Of a stretch of DNA of 64,000 nt, positions 34,559 to 48,876 are shown in pieces. Numbering within the stretch: position 1 is the first letter of the stretch; each line of letters opens with the position of its first letter. The position numbers were made by a program, and so were the translations under genes. The DNA is from Candidatus Coatesiibacteriota bacterium (GTDB taxonomy: Bacteria; RBG-13-66-14; B26-G2; JAUVZD01), in NCBI GenBank assembly GCA_030602715.1, contig JAUVZD010000007.1:1-64000 (forward strand), written 5' to 3'. The notes under the pieces are model-generated. The model was not told the DNA's origin. It made no database searches and was given only the letters and a program-made list of their open reading frames with translations.

Positions 34559-35416
34559 ATGAAGTGGATTACCATTGTTTTTGTCCTGATGTTCTTGCCC
34601 TTCTGGGCATTTGGCTTGTTGGACGATACTGGAGCCGATTTAAGCGCTCCGTTTGGGAGCCAGATACCCACACCCAATCCCGATGTGGATATTGAGATAG
34701 ATATCCTCAACACCTTCACATGTTCTTACGCATCGCATATCTTGGGATTGGATTATGTTGAGGACGAAAGCCTCTTGGGGTTTGACAGCAACTTGAACAA
34801 AACATTCTTCTATTGCGACCCTGACGACGGGACCTATGTGGACGAACTGTATCTGGCTTATTCCTCATCCCCCTTCTGTGCCGTTGCTGACGACAATGGA
34901 TATGTGTATGTGGACGACTGGGGAGAATCCTACATAAACTGGTGGGACGGATCCTGGCATTCCTTCTCCAATCCCTCTGGGACCGATGGCAGAGGGATGG
35001 ACTATGACTTTGACAGCGGTTACCTCTGGGAGACCAAATCCAGCACTGGCGTGTATCGCTTCCTCACCGATGGCACCGGCTCTGAGTTCTTCAGCCTTTC
35101 CGAGGTTCCCACCTCGATGAGCGGGCTCACCGTCTTCCCCCACGGCGACAATATGTGGTTGATGGTCACCACCTATGGCACGTTTAACTTCTACTTCTAC
35201 GAGTTTGACGGCTCTACGCTCACCTATCTGACCTACGAACCCTGTCCCACCGGCTGTTCCTCCTCCTTAGGACTGACCTATTCCGCCGAGAGGGACACCT
35301 TCTTCTGGAGTTACAATAGCGGTGGCTACAAAATCAGCGAACTGGATATCACCTTTACTTTCACCGCCGTTCAGCCGGTATCTCTCGGCTACATCAAGGC
35401 TCTAATGAGCGAGTAA
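34559..35416 (+). CDS. Secreted propeller-like protein with SLGYIKALMSE tail, copy 1
   Basis: A 285-residue protein with a signal peptide (MKWITIVFVLMFLPFWAFG). The body is rich in Asp, Tyr, Ser and Gly with recurring strand patterns (GLDYVEDESLLGFDS, GMDYDFDSGYLWE, GLTYSAERDTFFWS), suggesting a beta-propeller. The last residues are QPVSLGYIKALMSE, shared almost exactly with the next two genes though the bodies differ. I infer the tail is a sorting or anchoring tag distinct from the type A domain. GGGAGG before ATG is a clear ribosome site. Confidence 0.75.
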   Translation: MKWITIVFVLMFLPFWAFGLLDDTGADLSAPFGSQIPTPNPDVDIEIDILNTFTCSYASHILGLDYVEDESLLGFDSNLNKTFFYCDPDDGTYVDELYLAYSSSPFCAVADDNGYVYVDDWGESYINWWDGSWHSFSNPSGTDGRGMDYDFDSGYLWETKSSTGVYRFLTDGTGSEFFSLSEVPTSMSGLTVFPHGDNMWLMVTTYGTFNFYFYEFDGSTLTYLTYEPCPTGCSSSLGLTYSAERDTFFWSYNSGGYKISELDITFTFTAVQPVSLGYIKALMSE

Positions 35417-35437
35417 ATCTTAGAGGCAAGGAAAGCC

Positions 35438-35478
35438 AAAGTGGATGGGTCAATTCTTCCCATCCACTTTTATTTTTA
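35438..35478 (+). terminator. Terminator of copy 1
   Basis: Twelve-pair perfect stem AAAGTGGATGGG/CCCATCCACTTT, nine-base loop, then TTATTTTT. Confidence 0.9.
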
Positions 35479-35540
35479 AACGGCTTGGATCAGCATCGTT
35501 GCCTGAGAGGGGGAACCATCCCAATCGGGTAATTTTTTTC

Positions 35541-35569
35541 TTGACATCTTTACTATTTTTATCTATAAT
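35541..35569 (+). promoter_or_regulatory. Consensus sigma-70 promoter of copy 2
   Basis: TTGACA, 17 bases, TATAAT: perfect consensus. The leader before ATG 35673 is about 97 bases. Confidence 0.92.
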
Positions 35570-35672
35570 TTCAATGTAGTTACCCAGATAGTTAGTGGTT
35601 TTATTTTATTATTTTGTTTGTGGCTTCATAGTGAGGGGCTGAAACAAAAACCTAAAAAAAGGAGGATTTGGG

Positions 35673-36470
35673 ATGAGAATTTTACTTATTTCAGTTATCT
35701 TGGTAGCAGTGGCTGCTGTTGCCTATGGAGACCCGGGCGATATTCTTGACCAATGGCAAGTCTCTGGCCAGTCTTACAATTATGTCCGCGGGTTGGCTTA
35801 TGATTGGAACGATGAGGATGTCTGGTGTATTGATAACGATGCCGGCTATGCTATTGACTATTGCAAGTTCGACGGCGCATCACCACACGATGTAGTCGTC
35901 CCCTGGGATGATGTTTCCTCAACTTGTTACTGGGGCTTTGACATCGCCTACGATGGAACCTACATCTACATGAATGACCAGAATATTCTTGTTTATGTAA
36001 TTGACCCCACCGATGGAAGTGTGGTGGATTCCTTTAGTGCCCCTTGTGGTGGCGGAGATTATCCCGAGGGCATCGCCTACAACCAGGATACTGACTACCT
36101 TTACCACACCGGTTTTTACAGTAAGACCATGTGGGTAACCAACACCAGTGGGACTGTTGTTGATACCTGGACCAATATTCTCCCATCCGCTTCTGGTAAT
36201 ATGGGCGTAGCCTATGGATATGGAAGGATCTGGGTTACCAATAACACCACTAATGAGATCTACCGAATAGACCCAGACACCGGCACTCTTGAAGTAACAT
36301 TCGGTCACAGTATACCTGACTATGAGTTAGGTCTCTGCTGGTCACCTAACGACACATTATTTGCTGCTAATTTCTTGACTGGATACATCTACGAAATTGA
36401 GCCGGACCTAACCTTCACCAGTGTACAGCCAGTATCTCTCGGTTACATCAAGGCTCTAATGAGCGAGTAA
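35673..36470 (+). CDS. Secreted propeller protein with SLGYIKALMSE tail, copy 2
   Basis: A 265-residue protein with a signal peptide (MRILLISVILVAVAAVAYG). The body has repeated blade-like segments (VRGLAYDWNDEDVWCID, GFDIAYDGTYIYM, PEGIAYNQDTDYLY, NMGVAYGYGRIWV, ELGLCWSPNDTLFAAN) with a spacing of about 42 residues, as in SMP-30/NHL-like propellers, five to six blades. The C-terminal QPVSLGYIKALMSE matches copy 1. AAAGGAGG precedes the ATG. Extracellular binding is likely; no catalytic residues are evident. Confidence 0.8.
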   Translation: MRILLISVILVAVAAVAYGDPGDILDQWQVSGQSYNYVRGLAYDWNDEDVWCIDNDAGYAIDYCKFDGASPHDVVVPWDDVSSTCYWGFDIAYDGTYIYMNDQNILVYVIDPTDGSVVDSFSAPCGGGDYPEGIAYNQDTDYLYHTGFYSKTMWVTNTSGTVVDTWTNILPSASGNMGVAYGYGRIWVTNNTTNEIYRIDPDTGTLEVTFGHSIPDYELGLCWSPNDTLFAANFLTGYIYEIEPDLTFTSVQPVSLGYIKALMSE

Positions 36471-36491
36471 ATCTTAGAGGCTAGGAAAACC

Positions 36492-36532
36492 AAAGTGGAT
36501 GGGTAATTTCTTCCCATCCACTTTTTATTTTT
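36492..36532 (+). terminator. Terminator of copy 2
   Basis: AAAGTGGATGGG/CCCATCCACTTT stem followed by TTATTTTT, as in unit 1. Confidence 0.9.
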
Positions 36533-36596
36533 AAACGGCTTGGATTTGTATCGTCTACTGAGAGGGGGAACCATCCCAATCGGGTAATTTTTTTAT

Positions 36597-36625
36597 TTGA
36601 CATCTTGACTATTTTAATTTATAAT
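36597..36625 (+). promoter_or_regulatory. Consensus sigma-70 promoter of copy 3
   Basis: TTGACA, 17 bases, TATAAT; about 100 bases before ATG 36728. Confidence 0.9.
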
Positions 36626-36727
36626 CTTATATGGACTTTTGAGAAAGAATTCCTGCTTTGAAAAATGTGATACAATTGATATACAGAGACGGTCCAAAAC
36701 AGGTTTGACAGAAGGATTTGGTCAGTT

Positions 36728-37443
36728 ATGAATAAGATTACAGTTTTGCTGTCGATTTTGTTGTTGGTGACGCCTCCTCTATTAGCGACCGCCGACATCC
36801 TCTGGCAGGATGACTTTGACGGCTACTATCCTGGCATGCCCCTGGAGGATTCGCCGGATTGGGATGAATTCTGTCCTCCCGATTATTGGACCTTTGTTGT
36901 TGTCACCCAATCGGGAGATGACCTATGGGTCGGCGCAAATTGGTCACTTTGCATTGCCACCGGAGGCGCTGACAACCCCAATATGAAAGTCTCCGCCGGG
37001 AGGTGGACATAGGTGTCGCTCATTATGGCCTTCTAGGAGTTCTTACTCGTTATTCAATCTCTGAAGAAAATGGTTATGCTGCTGTATGTAAGGTTACCGA
37101 TACTTACTATGACCCTTACCCTCCTAGCTTTTATGGGGAGATACACTACATTGATAGTTGCTTTTCGTATGAGCGACTGGTTTCTATTGAACTGCCCGGG
37201 GCAATAAGTTCCATCAGTATCGTTGCCCACGGAGAAAACCCCGTCTATCTTGAGGCTTGGTTTGACGGTCACTGCCTTACAACCAATGATTACATTTATA
37301 ATCTTACGGAGGGCTACGGCGGAATATTCGCCGAGGGGTGTATGTGTCTAGAAGGCTACTTAGACGACTTCCTGGAGGAGGAGGTCTACGAAAATATAAA
37401 GCCCGCATCTCTCGGTTACATCAAGGCTATAATGAGCGAGTAA
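36728..37443 (+). pseudogene. Secreted protein with SLGYIKAIMSE tail, copy 3, frameshifted
   Basis: Two frames join into one protein. The first (36728-37012) has a signal peptide (MNKITVLLSILLLVTPPLLATA) and ILWQDDFDGYYPGMP, an opening typical of concanavalin-like (LamG-type) domains. It meets a stop at 37010, where the other frame (EVDIGVAHYGLLGV) continues to 37443 with SISIVAHGENPVYLEAWFDG and the tail KPASLGYIKAIMSE. One base appears missing near 37000. The cause could be real inactivation, programmed shift or a sequencing error. The intact tail and duplicated flanks show it belongs to the same family of expression cassettes as the two genes before it. Confidence 0.8.
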
Positions 37444-37530
37444 AGCTTAGCGGCTGGGAAAACCAAAGTGGATGGGTCAATTCTTCCCATCCACTTTTAT
37501 TTTTAAACGGCTTGGATTTACATCGTCGCC
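37396..37530 (+). repeat. Tail-terminator cassette repeat, unit 3
   Basis: Matches units 1 and 2 over the tail codons, terminator and AACGGCTTGGATT, then diverges; no promoter follows and the next gene is on the other strand, so the array ends here. Confidence 0.85.
37465..37505 (+). terminator. Terminator of copy 3
   Basis: AAAGTGGATGGG/CCCATCCACTTT stem with TTATTTTT tail. Confidence 0.9.
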
Positions 37531-37610
37531 TGCGAGGAAAAATACGCCCACTCCGCATAATCCTTTCTTCACATCTTTACTACCACTAACTTTCCAGATT
37601 GCTCATCACC

Positions 37611-46158: not shown

Positions 46159-48876
46159 ATGATGAAAAGTTATCTGGCGACAATTATTCTAGTTTTGTTC
46201 GCCGCCTCCTCTGCCTGGTCGGTAACCTTTGACCAAGCCACGGATATAGTCATCTCCGAGGTCTGTCTGGGCAACCTGGAGGATACCCGCCTTTCTACAA
46301 TTGAAGGGATTCAGGAGCAAGGCACTATCATAAGTTCTTTCTCAGACGAAGTTATGGTGCCCTTCAACTCCTATCTCTTCATCGTGGACCGGATGCCTGA
46401 CGCCAACTGGGAGCACCCCTGCCAGTGGGTCTTTGTGGATGTAGCAAGCGGGGAGTTTGCGGTATTTGATATGTTGTCCCCACCCGGAATACTGTTGATG
46501 ACAATCATCCACGAACCGCTGGATTTATCAAGTATCGGCGAATATTCCTACGAGAAGATCATTGAGCGCATCCGTGAGGAGCAGATCAAGATATTCGGGG
46601 CGGAAAGCTATGACTTTGACCACAGTCAGCTCAAAGGACAGCGCTACGCCCTGCTCATTGACGGCGGATACGCCCTTTCCAGCAACTACATCCGCTACTG
46701 GGACGATATCGCCTTCATCTACCGAGCCCTGGTCAACTACTACGGCTACGACGAGGACAACGAGATAACCGTCTGCATGTCCGACGGGGACAACCCCGCT
46801 AATGACCGCAACCGCTGGCCCTATTCCGGCTACGACAGCTCACCTACCGACCTGGACGACGACGGAGACCAGGACTATTCCCTGGACGCCACCCGCTCAA
46901 CCATCCTCAGCCAACTACAATGGTTGGTTGACAACACCACCGCAGACGACCAGGTCTTCATCTTCACCACCGACCACGGGGCAAGCGACGGTAGTCTCTG
47001 CCTGTGGAATCAACAGTCCCTCTACCCCAATGAATTTGCCGACTATGTTGAAGATATGCCCGCCGAGGTGGTTATCTGCACCTTTGAACAATGTTATTCC
47101 GGAGCCTTCCCCGACGCCCTGGCTGACGTTGAGGGCTGTATCAGTTGTTCGGCGGTGGATGCTTACCACTCCTCATACGCCATGGGTCCCGAATATCTCT
47201 TTGATACCTTCGTCTTCCATTGGACCTGTGCGGTGAACTGGGCGGAACCCGATTTTGAGGGCTACGACAGCGACCCCATTGACGCCGACGAAGACGACTC
47301 CGGCGAGGTGGAGATGGACGAAGCTTTTGACTATGCCGACTTACACGACACCGACGACTTTGGCTCTCAGTATCAGGACCCCTCCGAAATAGGCGATGTG
47401 ACCACCCTCTGGGGTAACACCACCGGCATAAATATCTCCATCACCGACTGGCAGCTCACCGAGACCTCCGGCGACGGCGACGGAATTATTGAACCCGGGG
47501 AGAGCTACGACCTCACTCCCTATCTGTATAACGGTGGGTCGGCGACCGCCACCGGGGTTGACCTGATTCTGAGCAGTGACAGCTCCGATTTAGACATAGA
47601 TACCGCCACCACTACCTGCCCGGATATCCCCCCGGATACCACCCAGCATCCATCCGTCCCCCTGGCTTTCACCATCCACGGGGATGTGGACCACAACATA
47701 CACATTGACTTCAACCTCAATGTCAACACCGACGAGGGCTATGACAAAGACTTCGCCTATCAGATAGGCGTAGTAACCGACTACGGTTTCCGTGACTTCG
47801 TGGAGAGCGGTGAGGGCTACTGGGAACATGAGGGCGACCACGACCAGTGGCATATCTCCGACACCGCATACTACAGCCCCACTCATTGCTGGCGGTGCGG
47901 GGATACCGAAGGAACAGGCTACGACAACAATATGGACGCCCACCTCTACAGTCCGTTAATCTTCGTAACCGACGACCCAAAAGAGACCCCCTACCTCTCC
48001 TTCTGGCACCAGTGGGGTATGTATTCAAGTTCCGACGAGTGCTATCTGTTGATTGATGACGGCAGTGGCTTTGTGGAGCTGGACAACTTCACCGGCGACA
48101 GCGGCTCCAACTGGGAAGAGGAGACCTACGACTTGACCGCATACACCGACACTCTGGTTCAGCTGGATTTCAACATGGTAACCAACGCTTCGGGGAACGA
48201 CGAACTGGGCTGGAATGTGGACAACATCATCGTGACCCCCAATCCGTATGTCGGTATAAACGTCTATAACTTCATCACCCTCTGCGAGGACGGGAAAGTC
48301 ATCGTCACCTGGCAGTCTCTTGAGGACGTGGGGATAATCGGCTTCAACCTCTATCGCCGAGAGGCAAGCGATACCCTCAACCAGAAAACCAATCTCACCG
48401 CTTCTCCTGAGGGAATGAACAGCCCGGCAAGTATAATCAACGACTGGCAGAAGCTGAACCAGTCCTTGATTACCGGCACAAATCCCTATCACTTCGTAGA
48501 TGAGGATGTAATCCTGGACGTTACCTACCAATACCGTCTGGAAGCGGTCTATGGCGACCACAGCCAGAATGAAGCCGGCTCCACCATCACCGTTCAGGAC
48601 CAGACCCAGCCCTTCAGTTATCATCTGGCGCAGAGTTATCCCAACCCCACCACTGGACACCTGACCATAGAATACGCCATTCCGGAGAGCGGTGCGGTCT
48701 CCCTCAAGGTCTATAACCTGAGCGGTCAGTTGATAGACATTCTGGTTGATGAGCACCAACTGCCCGGCATCTACTCGGTAAAATGGAACGCCCGGGACCT
48801 GGCAAGCGGAGTTTATATCTACACCCTCTCCGCCGGCAATTTCCTCAGCTCCAAGAGACTGGTCTTAAGCAAGTAG
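46159..48876 (+). CDS. Secreted caspase-fold cysteine peptidase (C13-like) with type A sorting domain
   Basis: A 905-residue protein. Signal peptide at 1-20. The peptidase domain (about 160-380) has GQRYALLIDGG, then TTDHG with His273 and FEQCYSG with Cys312, the dyad arrangement of clan CD peptidases such as legumain. Asp-rich segments (DLDDDGDQDYSLD, DADEDDSGEVEMD) look like calcium sites. Next come a CARDB-like region (ITDWQLTETSGDGDGIIEPGESYDL) and Ig-like domains, and finally a type A sorting domain from AQSYPNPTTG (about 825) to LVLSK. I infer export by a type IX-like system as a surface or released protease. It has its own promoter, long leader and strong terminator. Confidence 0.87.
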   Translation: MMKSYLATIILVLFAASSAWSVTFDQATDIVISEVCLGNLEDTRLSTIEGIQEQGTIISSFSDEVMVPFNSYLFIVDRMPDANWEHPCQWVFVDVASGEFAVFDMLSPPGILLMTIIHEPLDLSSIGEYSYEKIIERIREEQIKIFGAESYDFDHSQLKGQRYALLIDGGYALSSNYIRYWDDIAFIYRALVNYYGYDEDNEITVCMSDGDNPANDRNRWPYSGYDSSPTDLDDDGDQDYSLDATRSTILSQLQWLVDNTTADDQVFIFTTDHGASDGSLCLWNQQSLYPNEFADYVEDMPAEVVICTFEQCYSGAFPDALADVEGCISCSAVDAYHSSYAMGPEYLFDTFVFHWTCAVNWAEPDFEGYDSDPIDADEDDSGEVEMDEAFDYADLHDTDDFGSQYQDPSEIGDVTTLWGNTTGINISITDWQLTETSGDGDGIIEPGESYDLTPYLYNGGSATATGVDLILSSDSSDLDIDTATTTCPDIPPDTTQHPSVPLAFTIHGDVDHNIHIDFNLNVNTDEGYDKDFAYQIGVVTDYGFRDFVESGEGYWEHEGDHDQWHISDTAYYSPTHCWRCGDTEGTGYDNNMDAHLYSPLIFVTDDPKETPYLSFWHQWGMYSSSDECYLLIDDGSGFVELDNFTGDSGSNWEEETYDLTAYTDTLVQLDFNMVTNASGNDELGWNVDNIIVTPNPYVGINVYNFITLCEDGKVIVTWQSLEDVGIIGFNLYRREASDTLNQKTNLTASPEGMNSPASIINDWQKLNQSLITGTNPYHFVDEDVILDVTYQYRLEAVYGDHSQNEAGSTITVQDQTQPFSYHLAQSYPNPTTGHLTIEYAIPESGAVSLKVYNLSGQLIDILVDEHQLPGIYSVKWNARDLASGVYIYTLSAGNFLSSKRLVLSK

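Follow-up and report, generated by a model that had tools for sequence, protein, structure and literature searches.

The window analysed here is a 64 kb stretch of contig C18 of a Candidatus Coatesiibacteriota genome (G000; 2.31 Mb, 18 contigs), and it contains three tandem genes whose coding sequences finish with a short shared tail, SLGYIKA(L/I)MSE (Table 1). The tail is apparently an undescribed signal present in several uncultivated bacterial phyla, and a link to the type IX secretion system (T9SS) is considered below.

The three tail-bearing genes and their shared 3' cassette

The original prediction, made from the DNA alone, was correct as to the endings of all three open reading frames (ORFs) of the trio, although its description of three secreted proteins with three different bodies needs amending in two respects. 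Signal peptides are clear in the products of genes 1 and 2, but gene 3 is split over two frames and is not a single ORF; because its signal peptide and its tail sit in different frames, gene 3 as sequenced is frameshifted or a pseudogene. The break near 37003-37012 could reflect a pseudogene, a frameshift or an assembly error. Furthermore, the bodies of proteins 1 and 2 are related to each other (32% identity over 251 aa) and correspond to distantly related propellers.

A paralogue of protein 1 (54% identical) is encoded at 258.6-259.4 kb of contig C4 in the same genome and ends ...VQPASLGDIKAIFH. Modelled with AlphaFold2 (pLDDT 83), protein 2 has a beta-propeller at residues 24-242, then a low-confidence linker (below 50 at residues 248-253) and finally a short helix (256-263), and the model matches glutaminyl cyclases and NHL propellers in Foldseek.

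At the DNA level the copies match from the tail codons onward, through the stop codon, a terminator with a 12 bp stem, and a spacer, which together form a 183 nt 3' cassette. Because this shared repeat starts at the tail codons, the near-identity of the trio is in part a consequence of local duplication or gene conversion. The argument that a conserved tail on divergent bodies marks a recognition tag is supported by the genome-wide set described below, whereas in the trio the pattern is partly explained by DNA duplication. The terminator of copy 2 reads AAAGTGGATGGG-9 nt-CCCATCCACTTT followed by TTATTTTT, and terminators of the same type lie behind copies 1 and 3; it was read by eye, the scanner (loop limit 8) having missed its 9 nt loop. 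Consensus-perfect promoter-like sites are present upstream of genes 2 and 3, and both overlap the ends of the 3' cassettes.

Table 1. Positions of the tail-bearing genes and associated features in the window.
Feature	Coordinates	Strand	Remarks
Tail-bearing secreted protein 1, 285 aa	34559..35416	+	Signal peptide, propeller-like body, tail SLGYIKALMSE
Tail codons, copy 1 (SLGYIKALMSE)	35381..35413	+	Tail HMM E 6.2e-10
3' cassette, copy 1, 183 nt	35373..35555	+	Tail codons, stop, terminator, spacer
Promoter-like site upstream of gene 2	35541..35569	+	TTGACA-17-TATAAT
Tail-bearing secreted protein 2, 265 aa	35673..36470	+	Signal peptide, beta-propeller, C-terminal helix (model); DUF6923 match
Tail codons, copy 2 (SLGYIKALMSE)	36435..36467	+	Tail HMM E 2.1e-9
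3' cassette, copy 2, 183 nt	36427..36609	+
Terminator, copy 2	36492..36530	+	Read from sequence
Promoter-like site upstream of gene 3	36597..36625	+	TTGACA-17-TATAAT
Gene 3, 5' part	36728..37012	+	Signal peptide and start of body; stop at 37010-37012
Gene 3, 3' part	37003..37443	+	Other frame, tail at end
Tail codons, copy 3 (SLGYIKAIMSE)	37408..37440	+	Tail HMM E 1.5e-8
3' cassette, copy 3, 183 nt	37400..37582	+
T9SS type A C-terminal domain protein, no tail (context)	46159..48876	+	TIGR04183 E 3.7e-11, residues 827-902

Distribution of the tail and the proteins that carry it

Confinement of the tail to the trio had been named in advance as the result that would speak against a function, and the tail is not so confined: about 35 proteins carry it in G000, and up to about 144 do so in genomes of the same class. 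Searched with a degenerate DNA pattern encoding LGx[IV]KA, the genome yields 34 matches, far above chance in view of the 7 from a reversed-pattern control, and 21 of the 34 lie 3-4 residues ahead of a stop codon, with [VI]QPx preceding most of these 21. A hidden Markov model (HMM) built from those genome tails finds 42 matches in G000, and a 15-position HMM built from 46 tails (A4) finds 35 at E<=0.05. The consensus of about 14 residues is V/I-x-P-x-S-[L/W/F]-G-x-[V/I]-K-A-[L/M]-[F/Y]-x-stop; most tails have the [FY]x ending, and the MSE ending of the window copies is an oddity. The tail peptide sequence PTSWGSIKAMFR contains the conserved Gly and Lys. In 175 of 191 collected tail proteins the spacing from Gly to the stop is exactly 7 residues, and the flanks are conserved as Pro at -4 (89%), Val or Ile at -6 (90%) and Phe or Tyr at +6 (96%); the collecting pattern fixed the motif core of this set and imposed neither these three positions nor that of the stop. 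Since codon use differs between the copies in the genome, the tail is conserved at the protein level. Tail genes are often arranged in tandem arrays, with 7 of 12 in G000 adjoining another tail gene or a gene for a T9SS C-terminal domain (CTD), compared with 1.2 expected.

Genomes of the same class (G002-G006) have 91-144 matches each with an earlier model (A2). With A4 the counts are 35 in G000, 15 in G001, 80 in G005 and 40 in both G007 and G009, and tail-rich genomes of other lineages, among them Eisenbacteria, Krumholzibacteria and Latescibacterota, have from 5 to 61 (17 in each of two Eisenbacteria genomes, 61 in G029, 26 in G031 and 5-18 in the remainder). The Delongbacteria genomes and G032 have a single match apiece, and G014-G020 none or one. 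A scan of contigs from many genomes with a 13-codon pattern yields 78 stretches, where about one chance match is expected by our own bit count; the scan used one fixed pattern and misses lineages with other tail variants. Tails are found at ORF ends in records labelled Eisenbacteria, Krumholzibacteriota, Latescibacterota, Delongbacteria and other bacteria, and the tail reaches at least five lineages beyond the class of the window. Almost all of the sequences are metagenome-assembled. A match in Moraxellaceae falls in a 13 aa ORF and was set aside as chance. We also note that the Zixiibacteriota labels of JAUWLW (CSMAG_2382) and WVWN (A-C077) look wrong, and WVWN matches G004, a member of the window's class.

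The genome-wide search for tails on proteins with signal peptides, suggested with the original prediction, finds many bearers: by a simple and crude rule, a signal-peptide-like start is present in 127 of 168 tail ORFs (76%) compared with 134 of 1159 length-matched controls (11.6%). All 12 tail proteins on the sampled G000 contigs have a signal peptide, one of them probably having no true tail. The 191 tail proteins fall into 44 homology groups by body, including TolB and NHL propellers, FG-GAP, beta-helix, cupredoxin, choice-of-anchor C, J and R, and ScyF types (NCBI annotation). Choice-of-anchor domains are named by NCBI as a class seen with different C-terminal anchors. Many whole tail proteins are about 200 aa long, and their median length is 268 aa compared with 639 aa for proteins with a type A CTD.

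The protein encoded at 46159..48876 shows that G000 has both kinds of C-terminus, and the suggestion that the tail is a short signal separate from the type A domain is supported. Across the stretches sampled from G000, G005 and G006, a CTD HMM finds 39 type A CTD proteins and none of the 77 tail proteins, the 77 including a few false positives of the regular expression (such as a G000 protein ending SVGDLKGVQLP), and the tail-bearing window proteins match neither TIGR04183 nor the type B model (TIGR04131). A search of this sample for bodies swapped between the two classes within a genome gave none (0 tail-CTD body pairs). Tailless paralogues do occur, and one, a TolB-like protein of G005 (L258:14906-15772), offers a natural control for tail loss: it shares 60-69% identity with paralogues that carry the tail, some encoded next to it.

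Two other architectures were considered and rejected. An encapsulin or microcompartment targeting peptide belongs to cytosolic cargo, and the tail bearers have signal peptides; a PEP-CTERM or sortase-like architecture does not fit a tail with no membrane segment (1 of 168 tail ORFs has a membrane-like stretch within its last 60 aa).

A single-copy tail protein encoded beside PorD

One tail protein, with a signal peptide and an FN3-like domain, is encoded in each of G014, G020 and two Delongbacteria genomes, and its last ten residues are identical in all four. In the G020 phylum an FN3-tail model matches each of the 39 genomes, with a single full-length copy in 38. Among 32 FN3-tail sequences (29 from the G020 phylum, two from Delongbacteria, and that of G014, the only genome of its phylum) the bodies have a mean identity of 36%, whereas the last ten residues are 94% identical, and TWGSIKAMFR forms the final ten residues in 24 of the 32. 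An orthologue of this protein was not found in Coatesbacteria, Eisenbacteria or the other tail-rich genomes. Partial FN3-like matches to the model also occur in longer open frames, and in the one case checked (G020:C38:35924-36193) the match lies immediately before the type A CTD of a T9SS cargo protein.

By HMM, PorD is followed immediately by the FN3-tail gene, in the same orientation, in 13 distinct members of the G020 phylum, and further pairs in L281 (same phylum, by NCBIfam) and in G014 bring the total to at least 15 genomes. PorD (NF052317, PF16119 DUF4835) is a T9SS component and is not itself tail-bearing. It binds SprE/PorW in the extended translocon (PMC8754138, PMC10994853), and its deletion lowered secretion efficiency in P. 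gingivalis (PMC8754138), whereas in F. johnsoniae no effect of deleting it could be detected (PMC10994853). Transcribed divergently from PorD in G014 is a PorV/PorQ-like gene (NF033709, E 7e-11, below the curated cut-off), relatives of which are present in at least eight other clusters.

The wider cluster, composed of a gene for a large envelope-type protein, the PorV/PorQ-like gene, the divergent PorD and the FN3-tail gene, is conserved in G014 (L340:2058-6500), L321, L322, L324, L329, L332-L334 and L336, and the large protein has a ComEA-like helix-hairpin-helix in several of these. Two families of the G020 phylum, f12 and f17, have the FN3-tail gene beside one for an MBL-fold beta-CASP nuclease-like protein instead of PorD (L268, L269, L278, L279, L291, L293, L296 and L297).

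A candidate T9SS-linked signal and its alternatives

The tail is very probably a genuine recognition signal. A link to the T9SS is probable, on circumstantial grounds: co-occurrence and the PorD neighbourhood. Type A CTDs are present in G000-G013 and in all 13 tail genomes reached from other lineages (16-150 each), SprA-like proteins are present in G000-G013 and in 12 of these 13 (the exception, G028, is a 1.7-Mb assembly), and the tail is absent from the three T9SS-negative genomes examined (G015, G017 and G018). A plausible scenario, which we favour by a modest degree of confidence, is that the tail is a short T9SS-linked sorting or docking signal of Sec-exported proteins, distinct from the type A and type B CTDs. 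A tail protein would be exported by Sec and its body would then fold in the periplasm, with a Pro-containing linker presenting the last ten or so residues, S-[LWF]-G-x-[IV]-K-A-[LM]-[FY]-x, to an outer-envelope receptor. The candidate receptor would most likely be a part of the T9SS machinery, either the translocon or a PorV/PorQ-type shuttle barrel, and may carry the protein to, or hold it at, the outer membrane or cell surface.

Like the type A CTD (TIGR04183), the tail is C-terminal, has Sec-exported bearers, and is present many times per genome and in the same genomes; however, the type A CTD is an immunoglobulin-like domain of about 70-100 residues, which the tail of about 14 residues does not match. 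The type B CTD (TIGR04131) offers a likeness in gene order, since in F. johnsoniae the gene for a PorP/SprF-like outer-membrane shuttle usually adjoins that of its cargo (PMC12618676), and the single tail gene of tail-poor genomes has PorD close by, and in several of them also a PorV/PorQ-like gene; by analogy, this PorV/PorQ-like neighbour may follow the type B cargo-shuttle logic. The differences are that type B signals need 150-235 residues, that the direct neighbour of the tail gene is PorD and not a shuttle, and that no shuttle was found beside tail genes in tail-rich genomes. In PEP-CTERM/exosortase systems, too, numerous otherwise unrelated exported proteins of environmental bacteria share a short homologous C-terminus (PMC1569441), and some tail bodies are of the choice-of-anchor type, but the tail has neither a membrane helix nor a basic end, and no exosortase is linked to it, no search for an enzyme having been made. 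Neither the motif strings nor a C-terminal signal described in these phyla was found in the open-access literature.

Several observations weigh against a T9SS-linked signal. The T9SS is not sufficient for the tail, as G016 and G019 are T9SS-positive and have none; the T9SS-negative sample consists only of the three genomes named above, and the co-occurrence sample as a whole is small and phylogenetically clustered, so that shared ancestry could be the source of the association. PorD was not detected in the tail-rich genomes, G000 included, and there the link to the T9SS therefore comes only from co-occurrence; in f12 and f17 the FN3-tail gene lies away from PorD. In G000, tail genes show no clustering with those for type A CTDs (2 lie within two genes, compared with 0.96 expected), and the tail is several times shorter than the known T9SS signals, which fold as domains of about 100 aa or more (PMC12618676). 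As to the form of the tail, the C-terminal helix in the protein 2 model has only modest confidence, and in a test for an amphipathic helix the helical moment of the tails is not above that of column-permuted tails.

The alternative that fares best, although we consider it unlikely, is surface or envelope docking unrelated to the T9SS, in which a tail helix or strand would bind an abundant scaffold (S-layer-like, or bound to peptidoglycan or lipopolysaccharide), by analogy with dockerin and cohesin. A tail that is short, terminal and portable among numerous soluble proteins with signal peptides suits this reading, as does the lack of an apparent cognate processing enzyme (none having been sought), and the failure to detect PorD in tail-rich genomes also fits; however, the sampled tail genomes are all T9SS-positive and the single-copy tail gene adjoins PorD and a PorV/PorQ-like gene. 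Less probable still is a processing signal, with an envelope protease or sortase-like transpeptidase cleaving the tail and linking the body to lipid or lipopolysaccharide, as might be imagined from PEP-CTERM/exosortase or PorU. A fixed near-C-terminal position on many bodies and a Pro-containing linker are compatible with this, and a sortase-like mechanism cuts off and replaces the type A CTDs of T9SS cargo (PMC4560394). Against it, neither the membrane segment nor the basic end of exosortase-type signals is present, conservation peaks in the last ten residues and not at an upstream cleavage site, and no candidate enzyme turned up, although none was sought.

Two further explanations are highly improbable. 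The 183 nt cassette behind all three window genes and the tendency toward tandem arrays suggest a passive 3'-end repeat without function, but tails elsewhere use different codons on unrelated bodies in many phyla, and the contrast in conservation between tail and body in the FN3 family argues likewise; duplication alone is therefore rejected for the genome-wide tail and kept in part for the trio. A penultimate aromatic residue and a partial hydrophobic alternation recall the terminal strand of an outer-membrane barrel, but a beta-signal, or other structural part of a fold, fits poorly with tail bodies that are diverse soluble folds and with the protein 2 model, a soluble propeller from which the tail is detached past its low-confidence linker.

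Returning to a T9SS-linked signal, a more specific and tentative version is that the tail represents a third T9SS signal class of about 14 residues with a dedicated PorV/PorQ-type receptor, occurring as one PorD-linked FN3 protein in some phyla and expanded in Coatesbacteria, Eisenbacteria, Krumholzibacteria and their relatives, where it would be the chief C-terminal address of 15-140 surface proteins in each genome. If a T9SS-linked signal is the correct explanation, current annotation would miss a large share of the secretome in several abundant uncultivated phyla, and cargo recognition by the T9SS would extend beyond folded domains. A portable signal of ten residues would provide a simple handle for finding its receptor and for surface display, and the PorD-linked FN3 protein stands out as a specific candidate for a T9SS-associated component that has gone unrecognised.

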